DNA of 64,000 nt from Sphingobium sp. JS3065 (GTDB lineage: Bacteria > Pseudomonadota > Alphaproteobacteria > Sphingomonadales > Sphingomonadaceae): the NCBI RefSeq assembly GCF_026427355.1, contig NZ_CP102664.1, positions 2,046,001 through 2,110,000 on the forward strand, given 5' to 3'. The notes under the pieces were generated by a model, which was not told the origin of the DNA, made no database searches, and worked only from the letters and a program-made list of their open reading frames with translations. Position numbers and translations under genes: made by a program. This document shows, piece after piece, positions 52,646-64,000 of this stretch (position 1 is its first letter; the number at the start of each line of letters is the position of its first letter).

Positions 52646-53722
52646 TTACTGACCCGAACCCGGACCGTAGGTGATTTCCACGCGACGGTTCTGCAGTTCG
52701 CGGACGCCGTCGGCGGTTTCGACGCGGGGGTTCGATTCACCGAACGCCTGGGTCGTGATCACGCCGTCGGGGATGCCCTTCGAAGCGACATAGGCCTTGA
52801 CCGCGTCAGCACGACGCTGCGACAGACCGACGTTGTACGAGGCCGAACCCGAACGGTCCGCATAGCCCGCCAGCATGACCTGGGCGCTGCCGCAGTTGCT
52901 GTAGGCCGAAACCGCGTTGTCCAAAATGGTGGCGGCGTCAGGCGTGATGTCCGACTTGTCCCATTCGAAGAACACGATGTACGGCCCAGGGCTGCACTCG
53001 GCCACCGGCGGCGGAGGCGGCGGGGGCGGGGGCGGCGGGGGAGGCGGCGGGGGCGGAGGCGGCGGCGGAGCAGCCGGTTCGCCACCGAAGTTGTAGGTCA
53101 GACCCAGCAGCAGGCTGTGGGTGCGCAGCTTGGTTTCGACCGACGAACCGGCGGGGCCACCGATGGTGGTGTAGGCCGGGATCAGCTTGATATCGTCCTG
53201 ATTGAAGAAGCGATACTTCAGCGAGACGTCGACATGGTTGGTCAGCGGATAGCGAACGCCCGCGATCGCCTGCCAGGCGAAGCCGGTGTCCGAATCATTG
53301 ACCAGATCGTTGGCCAGCTTGCCGCGCGAAACGCCGACACCGCCGCCGACGAAGCCCTGCAGGCCGTCATCGGGACCGAAGTCCAGCAAACCGTTCAGCA
53401 TGAAGGACAGGGCCGAAGCCGCACCGCCGAAGAGGCTCTTGTCCAGGTCGACCTCGGCGCGCTTGTAGGCCGCCTCGGCTTCCAGGCGGAAACCGCCGAA
53501 ATCATAACCGATATTGGCGTCGCCATCGAAGCCCTTGTGGTAGTCCACATTGGAAATGGTGTTGCTGGCTGCACCGGCATTGCCGGGGGTGAAGGTGATG
53601 TCCTGATCTTCGACGAGAACAACGCCGGAGTCGATGCCGACATACCAGCTATTGTCACGCGCCAAGGCCGGAGTGGCCAGGGCGCTTGTGGCAAGCACGG
53701 CCGCGAGGGCAAGCTTCCGCAT
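52646..53722 (-). CDS. OmpA-family outer-membrane protein with poly-proline linker
   Basis: 358 residues. A signal peptide (cleaved near ALA-RDN) leads to an eight-strand-type barrel (about 25-220), then a linker of 21 consecutive Pro, then an OmpA C-terminal peptidoglycan-binding domain (FFEWDKSDITPDAATILDNA, then GYADRSGSASYNVGLSQRRA and NRRVEI). GGGGA lies six bases before the ATG at 53722; the frame extends further upstream without support. This is likely an abundant porin-like anchor between outer membrane and cell wall. Confidence 0.94.
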   Translation of the reverse strand: MRKLALAAVLATSALATPALARDNSWYVGIDSGVVLVEDQDITFTPGNAGAASNTISNVDYHKGFDGDANIGYDFGGFRLEAEAAYKRAEVDLDKSLFGGAASALSFMLNGLLDFGPDDGLQGFVGGGVGVSRGKLANDLVNDSDTGFAWQAIAGVRYPLTNHVDVSLKYRFFNQDDIKLIPAYTTIGGPAGSSVETKLRTHSLLLGLTYNFGGEPAAPPPPPPPPPPPPPPPPPPPPPVAECSPGPYIVFFEWDKSDITPDAATILDNAVSAYSNCGSAQVMLAGYADRSGSASYNVGLSQRRADAVKAYVASKGIPDGVITTQAFGESNPRVETADGVRELQNRRVEITYGPGSGQ

Positions 53723-53911
53723 CTGTATTCCCCTTTCAAAAGTGTCACGAAGGACTGCTGAAACCCTGTATCCGCTAGAAAGTTTCATGGCAAGTCCACA
53801 ATTGGCAAAACTGTTGCAAAAATAACGCAGTAGACCTGTCCACCCGCCCGCGAAGACTAATCAGCGGACGCCTTCTTGTAAAAAGCGGACATCCCCCAAG
53901 TCACGGCCCGG

Positions 53912-54415
53912 TCAGGCCGCAATCAAGCCATGCGCCCGCAACGCGCCCAATATGGCCACCAGTGCGGAACGGGCCTCCGCGTCCACGGTCGCGCCGCCCG
54001 ACGGATCGGCGATGGCGGCCGCCCGCGCTCCGACGACACGCGCGCCGCCGACATGGAATCCGTCGCTCCCCGCGCCGCAATCCCGCCAGCCCGTCCCGTC
54101 ATGCAACATGGCATGCCCCCTGTCCGCGACCCATAGCGAAAGCCCCGCGCGCGGAGCGGCAAAGCGCCATCCCCCCTCGGTCCAGCAGGCCAGGGCATCC
54201 TCCTGCCCCTCCCACGCGCCCGATGCGCCCGCCGCCACGATCCAGCAGGCGCCGACCGGGGGCGAAGGCGGCGGCGCATGCTCATCGGCGCTTTCCACCG
54301 CGCCATGCAGCAGCATGTCGATCCGGGCCAGCGCCTCATTGTGGAAAATTTCCTTCTGCGCCTGCCCCGCGAAAAGCTGCGGCAAGGCCCAACGGAAAGT
54401 CGAGTCCATCGTCAT
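53912..54415 (-). CDS. DUF2793 protein at end of GTA cluster
   Basis: 167 residues of the DUF2793 family. The conserved beginning DSTFRWALPQLFAGQAQKEI and HNEALARIDMLLHGAV leads to WIVAAGASGAWEGQEDALAC, then GGWRFAAPRAGLSLWVADRG, a domain found in phage tail and GTA-related loci. It is the last gene of the cluster, 39 bases after the hub gene, so a tail-tip or receptor-binding role is plausible. ATG 54415 is used. Confidence 0.88.
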   Translation of the reverse strand: MTMDSTFRWALPQLFAGQAQKEIFHNEALARIDMLLHGAVESADEHAPPPSPPVGACWIVAAGASGAWEGQEDALACWTEGGWRFAAPRAGLSLWVADRGHAMLHDGTGWRDCGAGSDGFHVGGARVVGARAAAIADPSGGATVDAEARSALVAILGALRAHGLIAA

Positions 54416-54454
54416 GATGCGATTATCCTTTTTCGTTACTGGAGAAATTCCCGA

Positions 54455-56656
54455 TCAGCCCACCAAAACAATGCGCGCAGCCCGCCCCAGCGCATGGGAA
54501 CCTATCTGCCGCACCTCTACCGCCACTTCGCCCCCGCTCCCCATATCCTCGGCCACCGCCGCCGCGTCATAGGTCCAGACGGGTTGATCGGTGACGATCC
54601 GGCGCACCGCATCCGCCCCCGCCCACAGGGTCAGTTCATAAGCTTCCCGATCCTCGCCCAGCGGCACGTCGGTTCCGCTGGTCCAGCGCCACCCGTTCCT
54701 GCTCCGCCTCGTCCAGCCGACGGTCCAGCCACCCCCGCCGTCCGGCCGCGCCGTCACATGAACCGGGGAAGGCGGCGCCACGGCCTCCCCCGACACCGTC
54801 AACAGCGCCTCGCTCGGCTCGCTGTCCCCGACGCCGATCGCCGCGACCCGGACGCCTCCGCCCATCTCCGAAACCCCGCCATAGGCGGCAAACGGCTCGA
54901 TCAGCCGATCCTCCTCCAACAACAGGAAATGCTCGCCCGCCTCATGGAACGCCATCGCCCATTCGGTTCCGAACAGCCCCCGCCGCAACCCCTCCAGCCG
55001 GAAGCTCGCCTCGCCGGTCTGCACCGCATGGCTGAACTGGATCAGTTCCCGCCCGACCAGACACAGGTTGCGCCCCAGCGCCAGCGCCGCCTCATCCGCC
55101 CCGTGCAATTCCATATCCGCCGCCAGCAAAGTGACCTGAACGGCATGGACAGCATCGATCAACGTCGCGCTCCCCGCTGGCAATGGAGCGTCCACCCGCC
55201 CCATCACCGCCCGGCCCGCCGTCCGCCCGACAGGCGAAGCCTCCCCCGTCGCGCCGATGGCGAAAAGCGCCGCGCCGCGCCACCCTTCGCCACCGCTCGC
55301 CGCCGCCACGACGACCGGCGCCGTCGCCAGCCCGTCCCTGATCAGCGGCAAATCCGCCAGCATCAGCGTCGTCGGCCCATGCGGCCTGTCCGTCTGCCGC
55401 ACCACCGCGCCCGAAGACGCCCCCGCCGGTATCGCCGTCCCAGCCCCCGGCACGCGCCGAAGGGCCAGCCGCACGGCCATGGCCTCCCATTCCCGTTCCT
55501 CGATCCGCCAAAGCCCCGGCACGCCTTCGACCGTCACGACATCCCCCGGCCCGTGGCGCAGGGCGTCCCACCCGCACCGCAGCGTCATCGTCGCGCGCCC
55601 GGTCCAGGCCATCGCCATCTTCCGCGCCGCCAGCGCCCGCGCATCCTGACCCGACAGCACGACGGGCAGGTCCACCCCCTGCTCCAGCCGCCCCGGTCCC
55701 GGCCTGCCGATGCGCTGCACGCCCGCCTGATAATCACGCGCCGCATCATAATAGCGCACCGACAAAGCCACCGGCACGCCATCGGCGGCACCGCCCGACT
55801 GCTCGAACCCGTCCAAAGCCCGCCCATTCACCGCGCGGCACAGCCCAGCAGCCCCGACAACCGCTCCGCCTTCCGCCCCGGAAGCCCGCAGACGCAACCC
55901 GCCCTCTTCGGCCACGAAGGCAAGGTCGAACGCCTCCGCCAACGGCGCCAGCGCATCGCCCACATCCCTGCCGCTCGCCGCCATGCCGTCGACCCAACCC
56001 AGGCCGTCGCCCGTCAGCATCCCGCCGCTCAACTCGGCAACCATCCCGCCAACCGGAACCGCGCCCTCATCCGCCTCGATCTCGAAAGTCAGCGATGGAA
56101 TGCGATTGCCATAATCCGCCAGCGCCAGATCCTCGAACACCGCATAGGCGATCCCCCGATGCCCCGGCGTCAGCCCCAGCCCCTCCGCCGCAGCGATCAG
56201 CGGATCGACCGCCTGGTCCTCTCCCCCCATATGCAGCCGGAAAGCCCCCAGTTCCGTCTTGAAGTCCCCCGCCGCCCCGCGCAACAGGTTCCCGTCCGCC
56301 CAGACGCGCCGCACCGCCCGCACCGCCCGCGCCGACAGGGCCACCGCAAAACTCGCCGAATAGCTGTAGCTGGTGACGCTCGGCCGCCCCTTGCCCCCGC
56401 CGCTCCTGTGCCTGGTCTCCTTCAGGTCCGTCGCCCAGATCACCGTCCCCGCCACCCGCATCGTCCCGAACAGCCTGGGTATCTGCGACCCATAAGTGGA
56501 TGTCTGGACCTGCACCTCGGTCAACCGCCGCCCTTCGACCCCCTTGGGCTTGAACAGCACCGCATGATCGAAGGCATTGCCGATCAGCCCCCCGATGGCG
56601 CCACCCAGCGGCCCGCCAATGGCCGTGCCAAGGGCGGTCAACATAATCGTCGCCAT
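54455..56656 (-). CDS. GTA gp15-like phage tail hub protein
   Basis: 733-residue tail protein in the gp15 (megatron) position. A Gly/Ala-rich hydrophobic start (MLTALGTAIGGPLGGAIGGLIG) is followed by VQVQTSTYGSQIPRLFGTMR, the conserved phage tail protein beginning, then a long beta-rich body. RcGTA gp15 is around 1300 residues and carries a TIM-barrel domain; this one is much shorter and shows no such domain. TAGGAG precedes the ATG, eight bases after gp14. Confidence 0.88.
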   Translation of the reverse strand: MATIMLTALGTAIGGPLGGAIGGLIGNAFDHAVLFKPKGVEGRRLTEVQVQTSTYGSQIPRLFGTMRVAGTVIWATDLKETRHRSGGGKGRPSVTSYSYSASFAVALSARAVRAVRRVWADGNLLRGAAGDFKTELGAFRLHMGGEDQAVDPLIAAAEGLGLTPGHRGIAYAVFEDLALADYGNRIPSLTFEIEADEGAVPVGGMVAELSGGMLTGDGLGWVDGMAASGRDVGDALAPLAEAFDLAFVAEEGGLRLRASGAEGGAVVGAAGLCRAVNGRALDGFEQSGGAADGVPVALSVRYYDAARDYQAGVQRIGRPGPGRLEQGVDLPVVLSGQDARALAARKMAMAWTGRATMTLRCGWDALRHGPGDVVTVEGVPGLWRIEEREWEAMAVRLALRRVPGAGTAIPAGASSGAVVRQTDRPHGPTTLMLADLPLIRDGLATAPVVVAAASGGEGWRGAALFAIGATGEASPVGRTAGRAVMGRVDAPLPAGSATLIDAVHAVQVTLLAADMELHGADEAALALGRNLCLVGRELIQFSHAVQTGEASFRLEGLRRGLFGTEWAMAFHEAGEHFLLLEEDRLIEPFAAYGGVSEMGGGVRVAAIGVGDSEPSEALLTVSGEAVAPPSPVHVTARPDGGGGWTVGWTRRSRNGWRWTSGTDVPLGEDREAYELTLWAGADAVRRIVTDQPVWTYDAAAVAEDMGSGGEVAVEVRQIGSHALGRAARIVLVG

Positions 56657-56664
56657 ATCTTCTC

Positions 56665-57036
56665 CTATTTTGGCCGCCAGTAGCCCAGCACCGGCCAGGG
56701 CGAATCCCCCGGCATCTCCACCACGCGCCCCACGCCCGCATGGGCATGGACATGCCCGCCCGGCACAACGATCATCAGATGCAGTTGCAAAGGCCCCGGC
56801 CGCACCAACGCCAGATCGCCGTCACGCGCCGCCTTGACCCGCCGCAACCCCGCCGCCCGCAACCACTCCGCCGCCAGCCCCTCATCCCCCGACCGTAGCC
56901 CATAACCCTCCGGCGCGCGCCGCCCCAGCACCAGCGCCGCCAGCCCCACGCAGTCCAGCCCCCGCTCGACCGACCGCCCATGCAAGCGAAAGCGCGCGCC
57001 CACCAACGCCCGCGCCGCCGCCACGGCCGCGCTCAA
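56665..57036 (-). CDS. GTA gp14-like NlpC/P60 peptidase
   Basis: 123-residue cysteine peptidase expected to cut peptidoglycan during tail penetration. C29 (GLDCVGLAAL) and H86 (LQLHLMIV) with HVHAHA after it are the catalytic-site residues. It starts with TTG overlapping the stop of the DUF2163 gene (TTGA); a GTG four codons later is an alternative. Position after gp13 matches RcGTA. Confidence 0.88.
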   Translation of the reverse strand: MSAAVAAARALVGARFRLHGRSVERGLDCVGLAALVLGRRAPEGYGLRSGDEGLAAEWLRAAGLRRVKAARDGDLALVRPGPLQLHLMIVVPGGHVHAHAGVGRVVEMPGDSPWPVLGYWRPK

Positions 57037-57851
57037 GCCGCCCCCGGATAGCGCGTCAACAAATCCGTCCCCGGCAGATAAGGCTCCCCCCGAAAATTCA
57101 CGACATTGCCGAACCGCCCGGCGCAGGTCGCCAACTGCCGGTCACACCCCTCGGTCAGCAAGGCCAAGGCCCCCGCCTCCACCGCAAAAGGCGGCGGATC
57201 GGCCAGGCTCACGCCCTCCGCGTCATTATCCACCACCCCCTGCACGATCCCGCCATTGGCCCCGGTCAACCAGCGCAAAGTGCCGAACGCATAGGCCCCC
57301 GCCGCCAACCCGGAAACAGCCGCGACGACATCCTCCACGGCCTCGACAGCAACCACCCGCCGCCGCCCGGCCAGATCGACCCGGCACTGCCGGTCCCCCA
57401 ACGCCGCCCGGCAATCCGGCGAAGTCGAAGGCGCGACCGGCGCTTTCAAAGCCGCCATCGCTCCCACCAGCTCCGCCGTGAAGGCCCCCGCCCTGCGCGC
57501 CACCGCCCCCAACTCCCCGTGAGCCAGCAACAACCACAAATCCCCCGGAGCCTCCCACTCCGTCAGCCGCAATTCCAGCGCAGCCCCATCCCAGCGCCCC
57601 GCCATCAAATCCGCCTCACTGATCGCATCGGACACCAGAGCGCCCTCCACATCGGCGTCGCTCCCCTCGACCCCGATCCCGCTCCGCACGGCGGAGGGCG
57701 TCATCCCCGGCGCCGCCCGATACAGCAGATGCCCAACGGCCAAGTCCCGATCATGGCTGGTCAGCCCCATCGTCACCCCATCCCGCCGCTCGATCCGCCA
57801 GCAAAAGGCCAATGTCGCCAGCGGCCTGTCCAAAGCCTCCAGCCCGCTCAT
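57033..57851 (-). CDS. GTA gp13-like DUF2163 protein
   Basis: 272-residue DUF2163 family tail protein. The N-terminal WRIERRDGVTMGLTSHDRDL and the C-terminal TEGCDRQLATCAGRFGNVVN with FRGEPYLPGTDLL are family hallmarks; four Cys in the C-terminal part (SPDCRAALGDRQC and GCDRQLATC) bind an iron-sulfur cluster or metal in RcGTA baseplate hubs. The ATG at 57851 overlaps the preceding stop. The open frame extends further up to 58214 but only the part from 57851 fits. Confidence 0.92.
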   Translation of the reverse strand: MSGLEALDRPLATLAFCWRIERRDGVTMGLTSHDRDLAVGHLLYRAAPGMTPSAVRSGIGVEGSDADVEGALVSDAISEADLMAGRWDGAALELRLTEWEAPGDLWLLLAHGELGAVARRAGAFTAELVGAMAALKAPVAPSTSPDCRAALGDRQCRVDLAGRRRVVAVEAVEDVVAAVSGLAAGAYAFGTLRWLTGANGGIVQGVVDNDAEGVSLADPPPFAVEAGALALLTEGCDRQLATCAGRFGNVVNFRGEPYLPGTDLLTRYPGAA

Positions 57852-60175
57852 TCGCGTATCTCCACCAAGGGCACCGAAGGCGCTTCCCCCGCCGCGAATG
57901 TCGCCCGGTTGATATCCAGCCGATCCTCGGCAAAGCGCACCGGCACATCGAACCGGAACCCCGCCGTCAGTACCGCGCCCTCCGCCGGAGCCACATCGAA
58001 AGCGATCACCCCCAGGCCGGAATGGCTCCAGCCCCCGACCATCTCGGTCCCATCCACGGCGACCCGGATAGTTCCCGCCACCGGCCGCGTGATCCGCCGC
58101 GCCTGCGCCTCCTCGCCCAGCCCATAAAAGCGCTGCAACGGAAACTCTGCCCGCACCCCGTCGCCCAGCCCCAGCCGCTGGTCCAAAGGCCCCGGCACAC
58201 CGCCCACGCCGCAACTCCGGTCATCATAAGGATCGGTGAACCGAAACCCCCGCGCCGCCCCCCGCCGCGCCCGGAAAAAGGCGATCAGCACCGCCATATC
58301 CGCCTCCGACCGCACCCCCGGCCCCGCGTCGAAGGACAGGCGCGCATCCGCCCAGTCGCTGCTCCGCCGCTCATGCCCGGAAACGCTCTCCACGATCTGC
58401 GTCGAGAAAGCGGGTGAAACGCTCGCCTCCCGCCCTACGCCCAAAGGAAAAGCGACATCGTCAAAGGCCTGCACATCATCCTCCCCATCCAGCCGGAAGC
58501 AGGTGAAGCCGTCCCGCGCCACCTGCGGCAACGCCCAGACAAAGACCGCCGCCGTCCCCCGCTTCACCGCAGCATCCGCCGCCGCCGCAATCTCCCGCCA
58601 CTGCCCGGCATCCTCGCCCCGCAGCACGAAGCCCGAAAAATAATGCTGCTCATGAACCGGATAGCCCAGCCGCCCGACCGCCAGTTCGATCCCCAGCGCG
58701 GTCAGCCGCTCCCGCCCCTCCGTCACCCAGTCATAATCCTCCAACTGCAAAACGTCGAAAGCCGGCGAAGCCCATCCCAATGGCATGTTCGCCCGCTTCG
58801 CCTCCGGCGCCAGCGGATCGAGCACGGTCGGCAGATAGGCCAGCAAATGCGTCACCGCCCCCGGCGCCACCCCTTTCACCCAGCCGCAAAGCGCCGCCGT
58901 CGAAGCCGCCAGCACCTCCCCCGCCCGATCCAGCAAAGCCTTCTGGGCCGCACTCAAAACCCCCCGAACATCCGGGATGGAAACCAGCAAGCCGCCAAAG
59001 GCCGCCCGCGCCGCATCGTCATACAGGCAGATGCGCCCATCTCCCGGCATCACCCACCACCACGGCTCCCCCACCTGAAACTTGATCGAAATCCCAGCCG
59101 CCAAGCCAATGGAAACAAAGGCCCCCGCAACCACCCGCAAATAGCTCATCGCCCCATCATGCGCGGGCGAGAGCAAAGTCGAAGGCGGCGACCACCCCGT
59201 CAGCGCGGGCGACCCGTCCTCGGCCCGCTGCTTCCAGTCGTTCCAGCAATGCGCATCGAACAATTCATAGGAAAGCGACCAGATCACCCCCAGCCCCAGC
59301 GCCCTGGCCCTCTGCGCGAAATCCGCATGCCAGGCCGCGCAAGCCGCATTCAGCACCCCGCCCGCCAGGCTGACGTAAAATCCGCCCCCCACCGGTTCCA
59401 GCCGGAAATAATGGCTCATCCCGACATAATGGTTGATGTCCCCGCGATAGCCCAGCGCATGGATCGAAGCGACGATCCGCTCCGGCGTCTGGTTGAAGCA
59501 ATCGTCATAGCCCGTCGCCATCGACAGCCCATGCTCCGGCAACACCACGTCGCCCACGCGCAGGACGGAGCCTGCCCCGTCGCAACTTATCCCGGACAGT
59601 TCACACCAACCCTCAACCCCGGCGGCAAAGGGCGTGCTCCCCGCATCATAATCGGGCGCGGCCAGCGAGATGAACATCCGGTCGACATCCCCCGCCCAGA
59701 CCGCCTCGCCCTCGCTCAGCAGAAAGCCGCTCCTCACATCGGCAAAATCCAATGTGACGACAGCATCTTCTGCCCCACCGCTCGCATAGTTCCACAAGCG
59801 CACATACCAGGACCGCGGCACGCCCTCCGCATCCCGCCCCTCGATGGTCAGCGTCGGCCCATGCGTCTCGTCCAGCCGCCGCAGCCCGCCGCTCCGCCAC
59901 CGAAAGCGCAGCACGCAATCGCGAAAATCCCGATCCGCCTCATAGGCCAGCAGGGCATGGCTCCACTTGTCCTCCGCCTCCCAGATCAGCCCCGCCAGAT
60001 CGCCCGACCCATAGAAAACGGCATCCACCCGCAAGGCATCCGGCGCGCTGGTGACGACACTCGCCATCATCGGGCGGGGGAAATTGACGGTCCAATGGGT
60101 CGGCGCGAACCGCTTCATGAACCGCGCTTCCTGCCCCCGCCGTGCATCCGCCAGCCAATAGCTCAAAGCACTCAT
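57848..60175 (-). CDS. Fusion of TIM-barrel-like domain and GTA gp12 (DUF2460)
   Basis: 775 residues. The last 210 are a DUF2460 domain (SPAFSTQIVESVSGHERRSS, then FFRARRGAARGFRFTDPYDD), which alone makes RcGTA gp12, the distal tail protein. The first about 560 residues are extra: an N-terminal beta-rich part (to about 200) and a Trp-rich, TIM-barrel-like part (SIHALGYRGDINHYVGMSHY, WSLSYELFDAHCWNDWKQRA and DVLQLEDYDWVTEG). The latter recalls the TIM barrel of non-contractile tail sheath proteins or RcGTA gp15. Its ATG overlaps the tape-measure stop. Confidence 0.88.
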   Translation of the reverse strand: MSALSYWLADARRGQEARFMKRFAPTHWTVNFPRPMMASVVTSAPDALRVDAVFYGSGDLAGLIWEAEDKWSHALLAYEADRDFRDCVLRFRWRSGGLRRLDETHGPTLTIEGRDAEGVPRSWYVRLWNYASGGAEDAVVTLDFADVRSGFLLSEGEAVWAGDVDRMFISLAAPDYDAGSTPFAAGVEGWCELSGISCDGAGSVLRVGDVVLPEHGLSMATGYDDCFNQTPERIVASIHALGYRGDINHYVGMSHYFRLEPVGGGFYVSLAGGVLNAACAAWHADFAQRARALGLGVIWSLSYELFDAHCWNDWKQRAEDGSPALTGWSPPSTLLSPAHDGAMSYLRVVAGAFVSIGLAAGISIKFQVGEPWWWVMPGDGRICLYDDAARAAFGGLLVSIPDVRGVLSAAQKALLDRAGEVLAASTAALCGWVKGVAPGAVTHLLAYLPTVLDPLAPEAKRANMPLGWASPAFDVLQLEDYDWVTEGRERLTALGIELAVGRLGYPVHEQHYFSGFVLRGEDAGQWREIAAAADAAVKRGTAAVFVWALPQVARDGFTCFRLDGEDDVQAFDDVAFPLGVGREASVSPAFSTQIVESVSGHERRSSDWADARLSFDAGPGVRSEADMAVLIAFFRARRGAARGFRFTDPYDDRSCGVGGVPGPLDQRLGLGDGVRAEFPLQRFYGLGEEAQARRITRPVAGTIRVAVDGTEMVGGWSHSGLGVIAFDVAPAEGAVLTAGFRFDVPVRFAEDRLDINRATFAAGEAPSVPLVEIRE

Positions 60176-60711
60176 CCGCTGATCGCCCCCCTCACGGCCC
60201 TCGCCACCTGCCGCGCACTGCGCGAAAGCAGTCGGGCGCTATCCGCCCCCTGCCCCTGCACCGCGATGCTCACCCGCACATCCCGCACCCCGCCGCCGCC
60301 GTTGGGCACGACCTGCCCGCTCGCCGTCGGCACGAAGACCTCCGGCCCCCGCTCCCCCACGACATAGGCCCGCCCCGGCGCCACCGGCCCGCCAGTCGCC
60401 CGCCCCGGCAGGCCCAGCACGGACGCCGCCAACCCGACCAGCCCACCGCCGCCGACACTGTCCATCCCCACCCGCAACGCATTGGCAGCGATGTCATCCA
60501 GCACCCGCAGAGCGACAGCCTTCAGTTCCTCGAACCCGAACTTCCCGGACCGGGCGGCCCGCAGCAACTCCCGCTCGATCCGCCGCCCGGCCCGCTCCGC
60601 ACCGTTCGCGAGAGTCCCTTCCAATTCCTCCCGCATGACGCCCACATCCTGGGCCAATCCCCGCGTATCCGCCCGCACCCGCACGACCAGATTGTCGATT
60701 TCCTCGTCCAT
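60172..60711 (-). CDS. GTA gp11-like tail tape measure protein
   Basis: 179 residues, a very short tape measure. A helical N-terminal half (NLVVRVRADTRGLAQDVGVM) is followed by a Gly-rich stretch (GGGGLVGLAASVLGLPGRAT) and the conserved tail end GPVAPGRAYVVGERGPEVFV. GTA particles have short tails, so the length fits. GGGGGCGGG lies before the ATG at 60711. Confidence 0.88.
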   Translation of the reverse strand: MDEEIDNLVVRVRADTRGLAQDVGVMREELEGTLANGAERAGRRIERELLRAARSGKFGFEELKAVALRVLDDIAANALRVGMDSVGGGGLVGLAASVLGLPGRATGGPVAPGRAYVVGERGPEVFVPTASGQVVPNGGGGVRDVRVSIAVQGQGADSARLLSRSARQVARAVRGAISG

Positions 60712-60745
60712 CCCGCCCCCCAAAGCTCATTTTGAAGCACAACAT

Positions 60746-60769
60746 GCTCCTGCGAAGGCAGGAGCCCAG
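60746..60769. repeat. Short palindromic repeat, family B
   Basis: GCTCCTGC-GAAG-GCAGGAGC hairpin followed by CCAG, in the gap 60712-60855 inside the GTA cluster; matches 30769-30793. Confidence 0.7.
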
Positions 60770-60810
60770 AGCTTGGAACTGACTTCCCGCCCCGACCCCA
60801 CACCCCCACC

Positions 60811-60840
60811 CCGTTCGTTTCGAGCGAAGTCGAGAAACGG
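60811..60840. repeat. Palindromic repeat unit, family A
   Basis: CCGTTCGTTTCGAGCGAAGT ending in CGAGAAACGG, an inverted repeat sharing CCGTTCG and GAGCGAAGTCGA with the element at 39760, just downstream of the gp10.1 gene. Confidence 0.7.
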
Positions 60841-60855
60841 AGTCACCCCCAAGCC

Positions 60856-61053
60856 TCAATCCGGCATCCCGGCCCGCAACCTCTCCAACTCCCCCCGATC
60901 CATCCCCACCCACGCTTCCTCCTCATCCCCGCGAGCCGCCCGCAAAACGCTCTCCAGTTCCGCCGGGGTCGACCGCCAGAATTCCTCCGGCCGCCACCCC
61001 AGCAACCACCCCGCGACCCCGGCCAGCCGCGCCGCCGCCTTGAAAAAGCTCAT
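60856..61053 (-). CDS. GTA gp10.1-like tail assembly chaperone
   Basis: 65 residues: MSFFKAAARLAGVAGWLLGW, RPEEFWRSTPAELESVLRAA then WVGMDRGELERLRAGMPD. This matches small phage tail assembly chaperones found between gp10 and the tape measure. The ATG overlaps the gp10 stop (ATGA). The W-R-P-x-E-F-W motif is characteristic. Confidence 0.85.
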   Translation of the reverse strand: MSFFKAAARLAGVAGWLLGWRPEEFWRSTPAELESVLRAARGDEEEAWVGMDRGELERLRAGMPD

Positions 61054-61361
61054 CGTCCCCCCAGAATCTGCCCCAATATCCCGCGCAACACCGGCGTCAG
61101 CTTCGCCAGGCCAACCGCCACAATCGCTTCGCCCAACGCCTCCCGCGTCAGCCCTGCGGGCGGCTCCGCCAGACAATGCCAGAGCAGCCCCGCCATCTCG
61201 GCCAGCGACAGCTTCCCGTCCGCCGCCCGCTCCACCAGCGAGAACAACGGTCCCAACTCTTCCTCAGCCGCCACCAAAGCCGCAAAACTGGGCCGCAGCA
61301 CGAACCGCTCACCCCCCAGTTCCAGCGCCGCCTCCCCCCTGGCCCCGTTAGCCCCGCTCAC
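61050..61361 (-). CDS. GTA gp10 family protein
   Basis: 103 residues of the gene transfer agent gp10 family. Seen: LELGGERFVLRPSFAALVAA with EEELGPLFSLVERA, then AEMAGLLWHCLAEPPAGLTR, GEAIVAVGLAKLTPVLRGIL. It starts with GTG overlapping the gp9 stop (GTGA). The family is found almost only in GTA clusters, which supports the GTA reading of this region. Confidence 0.9.
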   Translation of the reverse strand: MSGANGARGEAALELGGERFVLRPSFAALVAAEEELGPLFSLVERAADGKLSLAEMAGLLWHCLAEPPAGLTREALGEAIVAVGLAKLTPVLRGILGQILGGR

Positions 61362-61765
61362 AGCGACACCACCGGGCCGGAGCTTTCCAGGCTCAGCGCA
61401 TAATTGCGCTCCCCATTATAATCCCCGGCATAGTCCAGCCGCGTCACCAGGAACCGCCCGCGCATCTTCTCGCCGCTTTCGAAGCTCAGCTCATAATCGC
61501 CGATGGTCCCCGCCAGCGCATGGTTGCGCAGCCGCACCTCCGCCGCCGATCCGGTGAAAATCCCAGCCGCCGACACGCTGACCGACCGCACCCCCGCACC
61601 CGACAGCAATTCGCGCCAACCGCCCGAATCCTTGCTGGTGACATTCACCGCCTCGCCATTGACGGACAATTGCGTCGTGCGCATCCCCGCCACCGTGGCG
61701 TAGGCGACCGGCGCCTCGCCATCCCCGATCTTCAACAGAAACGCGCTTCCTTTTTCCACGCCCAT
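61358..61765 (-). CDS. GTA gp9-like phage major tail protein
   Basis: 135-residue tail tube protein (TP901-1 type). MGVEKGSAFLLKIGDGEAPV opens the fold, AGMRTTQLSVNGEAVNVTSK and SGGWRELLSGAGVRSVSVSA follow, and the C-terminal half ends in YALSLESSGPVVSL. GGAGGAG lies before the ATG at 61765; the frame upstream to 61891 is not supported. It begins the second transcriptional block of the cluster, next to the opposite-strand gene at 61824. Confidence 0.9.
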   Translation of the reverse strand: MGVEKGSAFLLKIGDGEAPVAYATVAGMRTTQLSVNGEAVNVTSKDSGGWRELLSGAGVRSVSVSAAGIFTGSAAEVRLRNHALAGTIGDYELSFESGEKMRGRFLVTRLDYAGDYNGERNYALSLESSGPVVSL

Positions 61766-61823
61766 GGCGCATTCTCCTCCAAGATAAACCGTGCAAGAAT
61801 CGGGATTTAGAGAGAGGCCTGAA

Positions 61824-62147
61824 ATGTTCGTGACCGCCCCCCTGATGCTGCTGCTCGCCGCCGCCCCGCAAAGCGGCGACGCCGTCGGCAATGGCCGAAA
61901 GGCCTATTCGGAATGCCTGTCGAAACAGGTTCAGCCCGCCATCGACAAGAAACTGACGCTCGGCGATTTCCAGTCCACGCTAAAGGCCCAGTGCGGCGAC
62001 AAGGAAGCCGCCTTCCGCGCCGCCATCGTCGCGGACGACAAGTCCAGCGGCATGTCGGAAAAGGATGCCCAATCCGACGCCGACGACCAGATCAGCGAAT
62101 ATAGGGACAAGATCGTCGGAGAATATGAAGACTATTCGAAGTCCTGA
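61824..62147 (+). CDS. Secreted small protein nested in the GTA cluster, opposite strand
   Basis: 107 residues: signal peptide MFVTAPLMLLLAAAPQSGDA, then a helical mature part (NGRKAYSECLSKQVQPAIDK, LGDFQSTLKAQCGDKEAAFR) with two Cys, and an acidic end (QSDADDQISEYRDKIVGEYE). AGAGAGG precedes the ATG. No family is recognised. It is the only plus-strand gene between 53912 and 64000 and separates gp9 from the DUF3168 gene, so its promoter may lie in the 58 bases before it. Confidence 0.8.
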   Translation: MFVTAPLMLLLAAAPQSGDAVGNGRKAYSECLSKQVQPAIDKKLTLGDFQSTLKAQCGDKEAAFRAAIVADDKSSGMSEKDAQSDADDQISEYRDKIVGEYEDYSKS

Positions 62148-62160
62148 CACCCCCACATTC

Positions 62161-62210
62161 CCCTCCCTTCCAGGGAGGGGTCAGGGGTGGGTGCGAGCGT
62201 AGCGAGCTTC
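62161..62210. repeat. Repeat element, family C fragment
   Basis: CCCTCCCTTCCAGGGAGGGG followed by a GGGTGCGAGCGTAGCGAGC stretch, in the gap 62148-62289 inside the GTA cluster. It shares the GCGAGCGTAGCGAG core with the element at 45570-45700. Confidence 0.6.
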
Positions 62211-62289
62211 AGGCCTGGCCGCTAAAATCGCCGCCGATGCCGCGCCAATCCCTCGCCCCCTATCCCCACACGTCTTGATCGGGACACCC

Positions 62290-62685
62290 CTAAACCCGCA
62301 CCACCCGCATCCGATAATCCGCCAAAGCCTGCCACGCGTCCCGCGCGCCCGTCCGCGCCACCCGCGACCGCGCCAGCCGCGCCCCGACGACCCGCCAGCC
62401 CCCGCCAGGCTCCAACACCCGCAAAACCGCATCGACCCGCCCCAGCAAAGCGGCCAGCCGCGCAGGCGCTTCCCCCGCGTCGTACAGGCTGACGGTCACC
62501 ACCAGTTCCCGCCCATCGACATCCTTCGCCCCCCATTCCAGCGCCACGCAGTCCCCCACCACGCCATAGGGCGCGCTAGCCCGCCCCGGCGCGCCGTCGA
62601 ACAGCCCGTTCAACCCCGCCATCAATTCCGCATCCCCGCGCAGGGCCGCCACGACCGCCCCGCGCACCGCCACCTCCGCGCTCAT
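62290..62685 (-). CDS. GTA gp8-like DUF3168 protein
   Basis: 131-residue DUF3168 family tail completion protein. MSAEVAVRGAVVAALRGDAE then FDGAPGRASAPYGVVGDCV and KDVDGRELVVTVSLYDAGEA are typical, with a C-terminal WQALADYRMRVVRV. ATG 62685 overlaps the preceding stop (ATGA); a GTG two codons earlier is possible. Confidence 0.9.
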   Translation of the reverse strand: MSAEVAVRGAVVAALRGDAELMAGLNGLFDGAPGRASAPYGVVGDCVALEWGAKDVDGRELVVTVSLYDAGEAPARLAALLGRVDAVLRVLEPGGGWRVVGARLARSRVARTGARDAWQALADYRMRVVRV

Positions 62686-62888
62686 CGCCACGCCCTTCCG
62701 TTATTCCGGCCCGCTTCCCGCAGCGCCAGATCGCCCATCCACCGCCGCTTGAGGCCAGCCCCGGACAGGCGCACCACCTCACCCTCGACCAAAGCCTCCT
62801 CGACCCCGGCCTCCAAAGCCGCCGCCGCGATCCCCCGCCGCCGCGCCTCGACGCGCTCCTCCACCAGCGCCATCAACCGCGCCATCAT
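62682..62888 (-). CDS. Small GTA cluster protein in gp7 position
   Basis: 68 residues from the ATG at 62888, which overlaps the stop of the connector gene; another ATG at 62909 would add seven. MMARLMALVEERVEARRRGI, EEALVEGEVVRLSGAGLKRR and WMGDLALREAGRN show a helical N-terminus and a beta-like end. RcGTA gp7 (head closure) is longer; similarity is not evident, so function is inferred from position only. Confidence 0.7.
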   Translation of the reverse strand: MMARLMALVEERVEARRRGIAAAALEAGVEEALVEGEVVRLSGAGLKRRWMGDLALREAGRNNGRAWR

Positions 62889-63370
62889 GCCAGCCGCATC
62901 CGCCGCCATGGCCGCCACAGCGCGCTCACCACGGCGGGCGGCGTCGCCACTTCGCCGTCCCGCGCCACGAAATGCTCCGCCGCCAGCCTGACGATCCCCT
63001 GCCGGATCGCGTCGGGCAGCCCCTCGACATCCGCCGCCAGACCCGCCCGGTATCGCACCGTCACCTTGCCCGGCCCGTCCACCAGCCGCGCCCGCACCCA
63101 GCCATCCCCCGAAGCGTCGATATCGACCGCATAGGCCCCGGGCGCCAACGCCACACCCTCCACCTCCACCCCCAATATCGCGACCACCGGCCGCGCCGTC
63201 AGCCGCCGCCAGCTCCCATCCGCTACGATGGTCTCGGCCGCCTCCCGCACCACCAGCCACTGCCCGATAAACTGCTCGCAAAGCCCCGAAGCGCTTCCCA
63301 GCAACCGCTCCAGCACGCCATCCTCATCGTCCGACCCGATCCGCAACCAGGCCTTGAGATCCGCCAACAT
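62885..63370 (-). CDS. GTA gp6-like head-tail connector protein
   Basis: 161-residue connector of the phage gp6/phiE125 gp8 type. MLADLKAWLRIGSDDEDGVL and LERLLGSASGLCEQFIGQWL start the family, and GVALAPGAYAVDIDASGDGW with VTVRYRAGLAADVEGLPDAI follows. GGAGGGG precedes the ATG. It sits next to the major capsid gene, as in RcGTA. Confidence 0.9.
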   Translation of the reverse strand: MLADLKAWLRIGSDDEDGVLERLLGSASGLCEQFIGQWLVVREAAETIVADGSWRRLTARPVVAILGVEVEGVALAPGAYAVDIDASGDGWVRARLVDGPGKVTVRYRAGLAADVEGLPDAIRQGIVRLAAEHFVARDGEVATPPAVVSALWRPWRRMRLA

Positions 63371-63384
63371 GGCCCCTCCCCAAC

Positions 63385-63418
63385 AAAAAGGGGGACGCCC
63401 ACAGGACGCCCCCAAAAA
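63385..63418 (-). terminator. Candidate terminator between capsid and connector genes
   Basis: On the minus strand GGGGGCG and CGTCCCCC pair with one bulge, followed by five T, 15 bases before the connector start. Could reduce readthrough from the capsid gene. Confidence 0.5.
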
Positions 63419-63492
63419 CCTTCTCCCCTGGGGGGAGAAGGATACGCAGCCTTACCGGCTCTGCCGGTTAGGCGAAGTTGGAAGAGGGGGAG
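63419..63492. repeat. Palindromic repeat element, family D
   Basis: CCTTCTCCCC and GGGGAGAAGG face each other around three bases, followed by the small hairpin ACCGG-CTCTG-CCGGT, filling the gap between the capsid and connector genes. Confidence 0.65.
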
Positions 63493-63493
63493 A

Positions 63494-64000
63494 TCACGAC
63501 GCCGCGAACTTCATCAGCTTGATCGCCTCCGAATTCGCCACGGCCCCGCCTATCCGCTTCACCGCGTAAAAGTGAACGAACGGCTTGTTGCTGAACGGAT
63601 CGCGCAGGATGCTCGTCTCGCTCCGCTCCGAGACCACATAGCCCGCCTGAAAATTGCCGAAGGCGATCGACAAAGACCCCGCCGAAATATCCGGCATATC
63701 CTCCGCCTCCACGACCGGATAGCCCAGCAAGGTCGCCGGCTGCCCCGCGATCAGCGAAGGCTGCCAGATAAACGCCCCGTCACTGGTCTTCATCTTGCGA
63801 ATGACCGCCAGCGTGGCCGAATTCATCACGAAACAGGCCCCCTGCCGATAGGGCGCGCGCAGGCTCTGCACCAGATCGATCAGCTTGTCCTGACCCGCCG
63901 CCGCAAAAGCGCCCGAAGCCCCCGAAGCCACATATTGCAACGAGCCGAAGGCGCGCACGCCGTCCACTTCATTGGTGGCCGTATAGGTCAGGAACCCCTT
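63494..64000 (-). CDS. GTA gp5-like HK97 major capsid protein (5' end outside window)
   Basis: C-terminal 168 residues of an HK97-fold capsid protein; the frame is open to the right edge. AGQDKLIDLVQSLRAPYRQG, then ACFVMNSATLAVIRKMKTSD, GYPVVEAEDMPDISAGSLSI and AFGNFQAGYVVSERSETSIL are diagnostic. The usual capsid is near 400 residues, so about 230 are missing to the right. This fixes the direction and left-to-right order of the cluster. Confidence 0.94.
   Translation of the reverse strand, partial: KGFLTYTATNEVDGVRAFGSLQYVASGASGAFAAAGQDKLIDLVQSLRAPYRQGACFVMNSATLAVIRKMKTSDGAFIWQPSLIAGQPATLLGYPVVEAEDMPDISAGSLSIAFGNFQAGYVVSERSETSILRDPFSNKPFVHFYAVKRIGGAVANSEAIKLMKFAAS

Follow-up and report, generated by a model that had tools for sequence, protein, structure and literature searches.

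A gene transfer agent-like cluster of Sphingobium sp. JS3065 with an N4-type tail-sheath module fused to its distal tail protein

What kind of element do the phage-type genes at the right end of a 64,000-nucleotide stretch of the Sphingobium sp. JS3065 chromosome belong to (C1:2046001-2110000 of a 5.1 Mb genome; hereafter the window), and what does the 775-residue protein at the gp12 position contribute to it? We analyzed the window together with the next 20 kb of its right flank. With a probability of roughly 0.7, we favor the reading that the cluster is an open, vertically inherited gene transfer agent (GTA) of Sphingobium, similar to RcGTA, the GTA of Rhodobacter capsulatus, and that it carries an N4-type sheath module on gp12 as a proposed collar. 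A prior sequence-only reading had called the cluster GTA-type. Its assignment as RcGTA-like type I is supported here, but that reading overlooked both the gp12 chimera and a g15 product that lacks the GTA_TIM domain.

The genes of RcGTA are arranged in the order g2-g15. At 53912-64000 of the window, open reading frames (ORFs) and a Pfam/PHROG profile search identified 13 structural genes, all on the minus strand, in this order from capsid to tail tip, as had been claimed. Read from the right, they are g5 (cut by the window edge), g6, a g7-like ORF, g8, g9, g10, the tail assembly chaperone (TAC) gene, g11, g12, g13, g14, g15 and a gene for a DUF2793 protein; the number 13 counts in the g7-like ORF, for which no family match was obtained.

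RcGTA-like clusters have already been described in Sphingomonadales (PMC6821227, PMC9765227, PMC9662315), and a conserved 'prophage' of this order (Viswanathan 2017) was predicted to be an RcGTA-like element (PMC6821227); these and the other papers cited below were available in part, and what is said of them refers to those parts. The window cluster is very probably the same element as this 'prophage' and the RcGTA-like clusters (Viswanathan 2017; Kogay 2019). In the available parts of the Sphingomonadales GTA literature, no mention was found of the sheath fusion, the missing GTA_TIM or the spike slot described below. The gp12 fusion is likewise unmentioned in the accessible portions of PMC9836097, PMC9638019, PMC13236601, PMC10218006, PMC10883770 and PMC8601537, although a prior mention is possible, Viswanathan 2017 not being covered. 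Since such GTAs have been described and no mention of the gp12 fusion was found, we take the cluster to be of a known kind with a variant tail.

Domains and predicted fold of the gp12 chimera

The g12 gene (57848-60175, minus strand) encodes a chimera for which profile, PDB and fold matches indicate NCTSP_N, TIM-barrel_NCTSP and DUF2460 domains in succession. Residues 20-208 (59552-60118) match the non-contractile tail sheath N-terminal domain (PF23844, 4.8e-90), and profile positions 7-90 of this region match gp65 of phage N4. Residues 213-557 (58505-59539) correspond to a TIM barrel, and residues 572-774 (57854-58462) to a distal tail protein homologous to Rcc01695 of RcGTA (PF09343, 4.1e-76; 6tba_6B, 1.5e-43). 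The arrangement of NCTSP_N followed by a TIM barrel (PF23844/PF23845), which is that of the N4-type sheath, is present in g12. The C-terminal third of gp12 is the RcGTA distal tail protein, and residues 1-560 make up an N4-type tail-sheath module. RcGTA gp12 has 210 amino acids in 6tba, and the window protein adds the 560-residue module to its N-terminus. Among the matches listed, the closest named relatives of the window gp12 are almost all from Sphingobium. A record titled Arthrobacter sp. TPD3018 (L159) also encodes a sphingomonad-type gp12, with 62% identity; its title may be wrong.

Three glutamates, Glu304, Glu370 and Glu479, are located at the ends of strands 3, 4 and 6 of the predicted barrel, so that the model has carboxylates at the C-terminal strand ends, as in TIM-barrel glycoside hydrolases. 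They are invariant in all 43 aligned proteins (from GTAs, a prophage-like region and another family), align to glutamates in N4 gp64, and are glutamates in 243/243 members of a wider set, a result partly built into the search. When the predicted gp12 model was used for a fold search, the nearest folds after N4 were glycosidases, PgaB among them; the whole 775-residue model was submitted, and the result was dominated by residues 214-565. The conserved glutamates at the barrel mouth and the glycosidase-like folds argue against the alternative that the module is structural or receptor-binding only and keeps the fold without catalysis. That alternative is favored by the pattern of clan GH-A enzymes, which carry their two catalytic glutamates on strands 4 and 7; in this comparison, which was limited to GH-A, the gp12 positions differ. 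Because the invariant glutamates sit on strands 3, 4 and 6, not 4 and 7, catalysis by gp12 is unproven. The described N4 system also speaks against an enzymatic module, as gp64/gp65 are reported to be sheath and receptor-binding subunits (PMC12633501). We consider a non-catalytic module a serious alternative whose chances fall somewhat short of even.

Distribution of the fusion and the shortened megatron

The sheath barrel was found in 158/249 genomes of the family Sphingomonadaceae, representing 78 of 96 genera, and in 154/236 when good-quality genomes were considered. Within the genus, a protein search detected gp12 in 52 of 61 genomes, the window's own included. When the class was sampled evenly, 5 of 385 genomes had the barrel, four of them from the family. 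DUF2460 was detected in 56 of the same 385, once below the cut-off, on frames of 788-872 amino acids in the four family members versus at most 404 in the 52 others; the fusion was thus seen in 0/52 sampled DUF2460 genomes outside the family. Family-wide, DUF2460 occurs in 166/249 genomes, and among the matches listed the frames exceed 750 amino acids with seven exceptions (226 in G385, 231 in a second copy of G493, 370 in G474, 390 in G424, 419 in G520, 442 in G426 and 574 in G457). Of 50,697 phage records, a single one, 5.4 kb long, covers at least 80% of gp12.

The same module also occurs joined to the baseplate hub, the gp13 homologue. Such hub fusions come from L087, a prophage-like region of a genome of the same genus, from L065 (G159), whose genome belongs to another family, and from Acinetobacter phage Loki; in all three, the distal tail protein has a gene of its own. 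NCTSP_N and the TIM barrel stand at the tail tip of Loki (LOKI_17) and L087 as in gp12, where they are joined to the distal tail protein instead. The place of the tape measure holds a 765-residue ORF in L087 and about 1,160 residues in Loki, compared with 179 residues in the window; in L065, just a 167-residue ORF was found near this place. For this reason L065 may itself be GTA-like, in which case a hub fusion is no proof of a phage.

To count fusion types, we used a set of 161 ORFs encoding the barrel, on IMG/VR contigs and in Loki, taken from two lists of the best 80 in which some contigs, and Loki itself, occur twice. Among the matches listed, the partner of the barrel was the distal tail protein in 141 and the hub in 14, while 6 had neither partner and none had both; on the seven listed contigs longer than 26 kb, five ORFs were hub-fused, one was joined to neither (L283) and one was distal-tail-fused (L282, 28 kb). 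Many of these GTA clusters are held in IMG/VR as viral contigs, mostly of 5-25 kb (L170-L249, L251-L330). In a 60-row tree, all 38 distal-tail fusions were placed on one side of a single branch (98/91), interspersed with one interrupted copy (L196), and the hub fusions fell into two other groups under midpoint rooting. The row adjoining the gp12 group, L269, is located beside podovirus-like tail genes, as judged by reading. The source of the sheath module is uncertain, because L269 forms a single long branch and the tree is rooted at its midpoint. An origin of gp12 by simple joining of neighboring genes was considered and rejected: in L087 and Loki the distal tail protein is followed by the barrel-hub fusion, and joining of neighbors alone would therefore give no fusion of the barrel with the distal tail protein.

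The second change at the tail tip concerns the megatron. The g15 gene (54455-56656; PF13550, PF23666) encodes 733 residues that align to positions 1-209 and 763-1301 of the 1304-residue Rcc01698. About 550 residues of Rcc01698 are missing, GTA_TIM included; the GTA_TIM of another GTA aligns to Rcc01698 445-739. This domain is carried by the RcGTA megatron and would likewise be expected of Rhodogtaviriformidae proper, a taxon at present limited to Rhodobacterales (PMC9662315). In the class sample, GTA_TIM was found in 36/385 genomes, in none of the five family members and never alongside the sheath barrel. None of the 249 family genomes has it above the cut-off, and one (G411) gave a weak match below it. 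Homology of the two barrels was also considered and found no support, the comparison of profile A2 of the gp12 barrel with one GTA_TIM sequence giving a probability of 0.4%; with a single sequence, this is a weak test.

Variation was also seen in the slot between the capsid gene and g6. The comparison was made on named loci, the best 80 of 144 fetched with gp12, a set biased to near relatives having this gene. Among the 70 with both neighbors, the gap is below 600 bases in 46, and the window belongs to this kind, with no spike-type insert in its slot. In the remaining 24 it exceeds 600 bases: 19 contain relatives of two spike-like ORFs with S74 endosialidase-chaperone domains, four contain a relative of an 88-residue protein matching the RcGTA head spike base Rcc01079 (1e-8), and one is of another type. 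Examples are L048:6523-8250, L060:6641-8528 and L058:6515-8898; the head-spike-base-like protein is followed by a GDSL-type ORF in L060, whereas the ORF that follows it in L058 matches SASA weakly.

Gene content, inheritance and upkeep of the cluster

Features on the right side are given in two locus stretches with their own coordinates, L009, which overlaps the right end of the window, and L010, farther right. The flank contains the rest of the capsid gene, a protease gene (141 amino acids), a DUF6127 ORF, a portal gene (375 amino acids), a glycine-zipper ORF and terL (438 amino acids), all open. The terminase, portal and protease genes that the sequence-only reading had proposed to look for there are thus in place, and the head genes are free of the frameshifts it had named as contrary evidence. 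The glycine-zipper ORF (L009:16681-17019, minus strand), between terL and portal, has a signal-like N-terminus and Pfam matches below the cut-off, and occurs in 16 of 71 long-enough named loci.

The capsid gene g5 occupies 63494-64000 with its 3' part; the whole gene (L009:13494-14606) encodes 370 amino acids and, scanned in full, matches PF05065 (2.5e-84). It is followed by g6, a head-tail adaptor of 161 amino acids (62885-63370; PF05135, 2e-6, and phrog_442, 4.7e-23, scanned from an upstream start). The g7-like ORF (62682-62909, 75 amino acids) is assigned to the head-completion slot by place, length and an ATGA overlap with g8 only; a longer ORF covering it has no Pfam match, and short proteins are known at the g7 locus of some Sphingomonadales (PMC9765227). 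The tail genes comprise the tail terminator g8 (62290-62685, ATG start; PF11367, 3.8e-11; phrog_176, 4.6e-10), the tail tube gene g9 (61358-61765; PF06199, 6.5e-41), g10 (61050-61361), which matches the GTA-gp10 family (PF11836, 7.2e-21) that had been reported from the sequence, the TAC gene (60856-61053; PF09550, 1.3e-9) and g11, a short tape measure of 179 amino acids (60172-60711; phrog_30701, 4.7e-77, and tape-measure PHROGs). After g12 come the baseplate hub g13 (57033-57851; 272 amino acids with four cysteines in the second half; PF09931, 9.6e-48; PF09356, 4.7e-24) and g14 (56665-57036), which has the position and length of a tail peptidase by gene order and phrog_329 (4.6e-6) and no Pfam match. 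Beyond g15, the last gene (53912-54415) encodes a tail-fibre-type DUF2793 protein of 167 amino acids (PF10983, 3.4e-32) that also matches R4C chain 8gtc_S (1.9e-14; 'Ribonuclease III' in that entry) and is present in 78/78 long-enough named loci.

The claim of intact frames with tight ATGA overlaps holds, with corrections. All frames are open, and four-base overlaps were found at six junctions (g9/g10, g10/TAC, g11/g12, g12/g13, g13/g14 and, from the g8 ATG, g7-like/g8), but the head half is not compact, since spacers of about 96-354 bases occur in it, with hairpins that lie in repeats, and one ORF is on the opposite strand. This ORF (61824-62147, plus strand, between g8 and g9; 107 amino acids; phrog_29720, 1.9e-51) has a hydrophobic N-terminus and two cysteines, is single-copy with no paralogues in the genome, and is present in 37 of 76 long-enough named loci; its ratio of nonsynonymous to synonymous substitution rates (dN/dS) is 0.19-0.36 in 10 of 11 loci, the remaining one being a 9-codon fragment, so that this ORF too is constrained.

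An ordinary temperate prophage or its remnant would be an alternative identity for the cluster. It is favored by the many such clusters catalogued as viral contigs in IMG/VR, by the occurrence of the sheath module in the prophage-like L087, and by a tyrosine integrase gene to the right (L010:12537-13550), 7.8 kb beyond the terL start. This integrase matches positions 26-77 of the 172-position catalytic-domain profile, below the curated cut-off, and the arm-binding domain above it; on reading the sequence, it is without the second half of the active site. GNAT, VTT-domain (just below the cut-off), metK and trmB-like genes and two ORFs without a Pfam match separate it from terL. An integrase beyond the right edge had been named in advance as evidence against a GTA; the gene exists, yet it is truncated and behind host genes, and it is not counted as part of the cluster. 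Within the cluster, no integrase, repressor, lysis or replication gene was recognised from ORFs and family scans, some small ORFs being unscanned, in line with the earlier claim. A tRNA scan of the window and L010 found no tRNA gene. The short tape measure and the fact that the L087 and Loki barrels sit on the hub rather than on the distal tail protein also count against a prophage, as do a constant neighbor and low dN/dS. Directly downstream of the DUF2793 gene and on the same strand, an ompA-like host gene (52646-53788, minus strand; assigned by reading of the sequence) was found in 78/78 named loci with both genes located, among them Sphingobium, Sphingomonas, Sphingopyxis, Qipengyuania, Citromicrobium and Erythrobacter records; the fixed chromosomal place was judged from this flank only. 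We regard a prophage as very improbable. The same genome also contains a second, prophage-like tail module (L089; G000:C1:338248-358247) with its own unfused DUF2460 distal tail gene at C1:348256-348870.

Selection was assessed by pairwise Nei-Gojobori comparison of 18 genes with 12 same-genus loci, some copies being truncated. Of the 210 dN/dS values, 209 were between 0.03 and 0.61, with 0.09-0.20 for gp12, and the single value of 1.71 came from a 9-codon fragment. The cluster genes are under purifying selection, which bears out the selection for function suggested earlier. This constraint, the open frames of the window and the retention of the barrel in most good-quality family genomes argue against a relic that no longer functions and persists by chance or because single proteins serve some other use, as does the report that selection for translation of GTA genes is strongest in Sphingomonadales (PMC9765227).

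Several observations nevertheless weigh against a maintained GTA, and those on loss in relatives and on reported function also favor a relic. The barrel is absent from 91/249 family genomes, and 9/61 Sphingobium genomes lack gp12; two gp12 matches have a TAG within the frame, and another stops at residue 607. Among 20 comparator loci, L057 and L062 gave no g5-g11 matches, an open gp12 being kept in L057 all the same; the genes before the capsid are absent from the stretch taken for L046, and gp12 is interrupted in L063 and L064 (L062-L064 were chosen for short frames). These relatives with missing genes or interrupted gp12 indicate that GTA loss is ongoing. In the available parts of the literature, we found no sphingomonad for which a functional GTA, a particle or transfer is reported. 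In addition, terL has no recognised TerS gene next to it, although no search was aimed at one, and no GafY/DnaA-like partner was recognised beside the candidate regulator gene described next. On balance, we consider a relic unlikely and prefer a GTA that is still maintained.

Regulators had been proposed as a check on the GTA reading, and this check gave a mixed result: a DUF6456 gene encoding a GafZ-type domain is present elsewhere, at C1:2496465-2496851, but without the recognisable partner. GafA relatives are annotated as DUF6456 (PMC9638019), and GafZ of Caulobacter enables polymerase to read through terminators within the GTA cluster (PMC11150451). In the window, two adjacent terminator-like hairpins with T runs (63391-63441, minus strand) lie in the g5-g6 spacer within a dispersed repeat, and similar ones precede g5 and portal. 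Near-perfect hairpins with T runs thus flank the capsid gene and precede portal (spacers 63371-63493 of the window, L009:14607-14702 and L009:16572-16680), and the terminator-like hairpins with the most G-C pairs are on the coding strand before portal, before capsid and after capsid. The repeat stretch at the window end has 25 genome matches, itself included. Since 15 hairpin sites were found where 11.2 were expected (standard deviation 2.8), their count alone is not significant. By analogy with Caulobacter, a need for anti-termination at these hairpins is possible.

A proposed collar at the tail tip

The window cluster shares with RcGTA its gene order, homologues of the distal tail protein and megatron (by PDB match), the hub family and a DUF6456-type regulator gene. 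It is unlike RcGTA in the short g7-like ORF and in the DUF2793 protein encoded directly after g15. In RcGTA, the DUF2793 protein is encoded elsewhere.

From these genes, we infer a short-tailed particle that would package host DNA, the cluster being switched on by the GafZ-type anti-terminator encoded elsewhere. Six copies of gp12 may then form a collar around the distal tail. Before the opening of hub and megatron, this collar would bind a polysaccharide of the surface or capsule and possibly cut it. A six-copy, glycan-binding collar is suggested by three known systems. In RcGTA, the distal tail protein forms a hexamer, with its N-terminal residue in contact with the baseplate (PMC7296036). 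The N4 gp64/gp65 sheath is six-fold and binds the receptor through gp65 (PMC12633501); gp64/gp65 have the N-terminal domain and the TIM barrel in common with gp12, but make up a sheath of their own, built of two subunits, on a phage with a short tail, whereas the window module is fused to a siphovirus-type distal tail protein. TspA of RcGTA is a spike that degrades biofilm and is seated on the tail tube, the megatron and the distal tail protein; other alphaproteobacteria with a megatron reportedly lack it (preprint PMC13420450). By description, not by sequence, TspA resembles the proposed collar, which would likewise surround the distal tail and baseplate and degrade glycans, and differs in being a separate, detachable trimer. 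The collar would stand in place of the RcGTA megatron TIM domain and perhaps also of the loosely bound tailspike TspA.

A more extended proposal is that the GTAs of Sphingomonadaceae form a class of their own, marked by a collar of six copies with enzymatic activity. In them, an N4-like module, acquired by an ancestor on its distal tail protein and perhaps derived from a short-tailed phage, would have displaced, without homology to it, the TIM barrel found on the megatron of other alphaproteobacterial GTAs, and cutting of host exopolysaccharide would bring DNA through the capsule to kin. We put this forward tentatively, with its chances clearly below even.

Outside Rhodobacter, how GTAs choose and gain access to recipients is poorly known. 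The gp12 module, carried across much of one family, is a single protein open to purification, assay and change, and the location of the barrel, on the distal tail protein or on the hub, is suggested as a genetic marker that may separate sphingomonad GTAs from phages.

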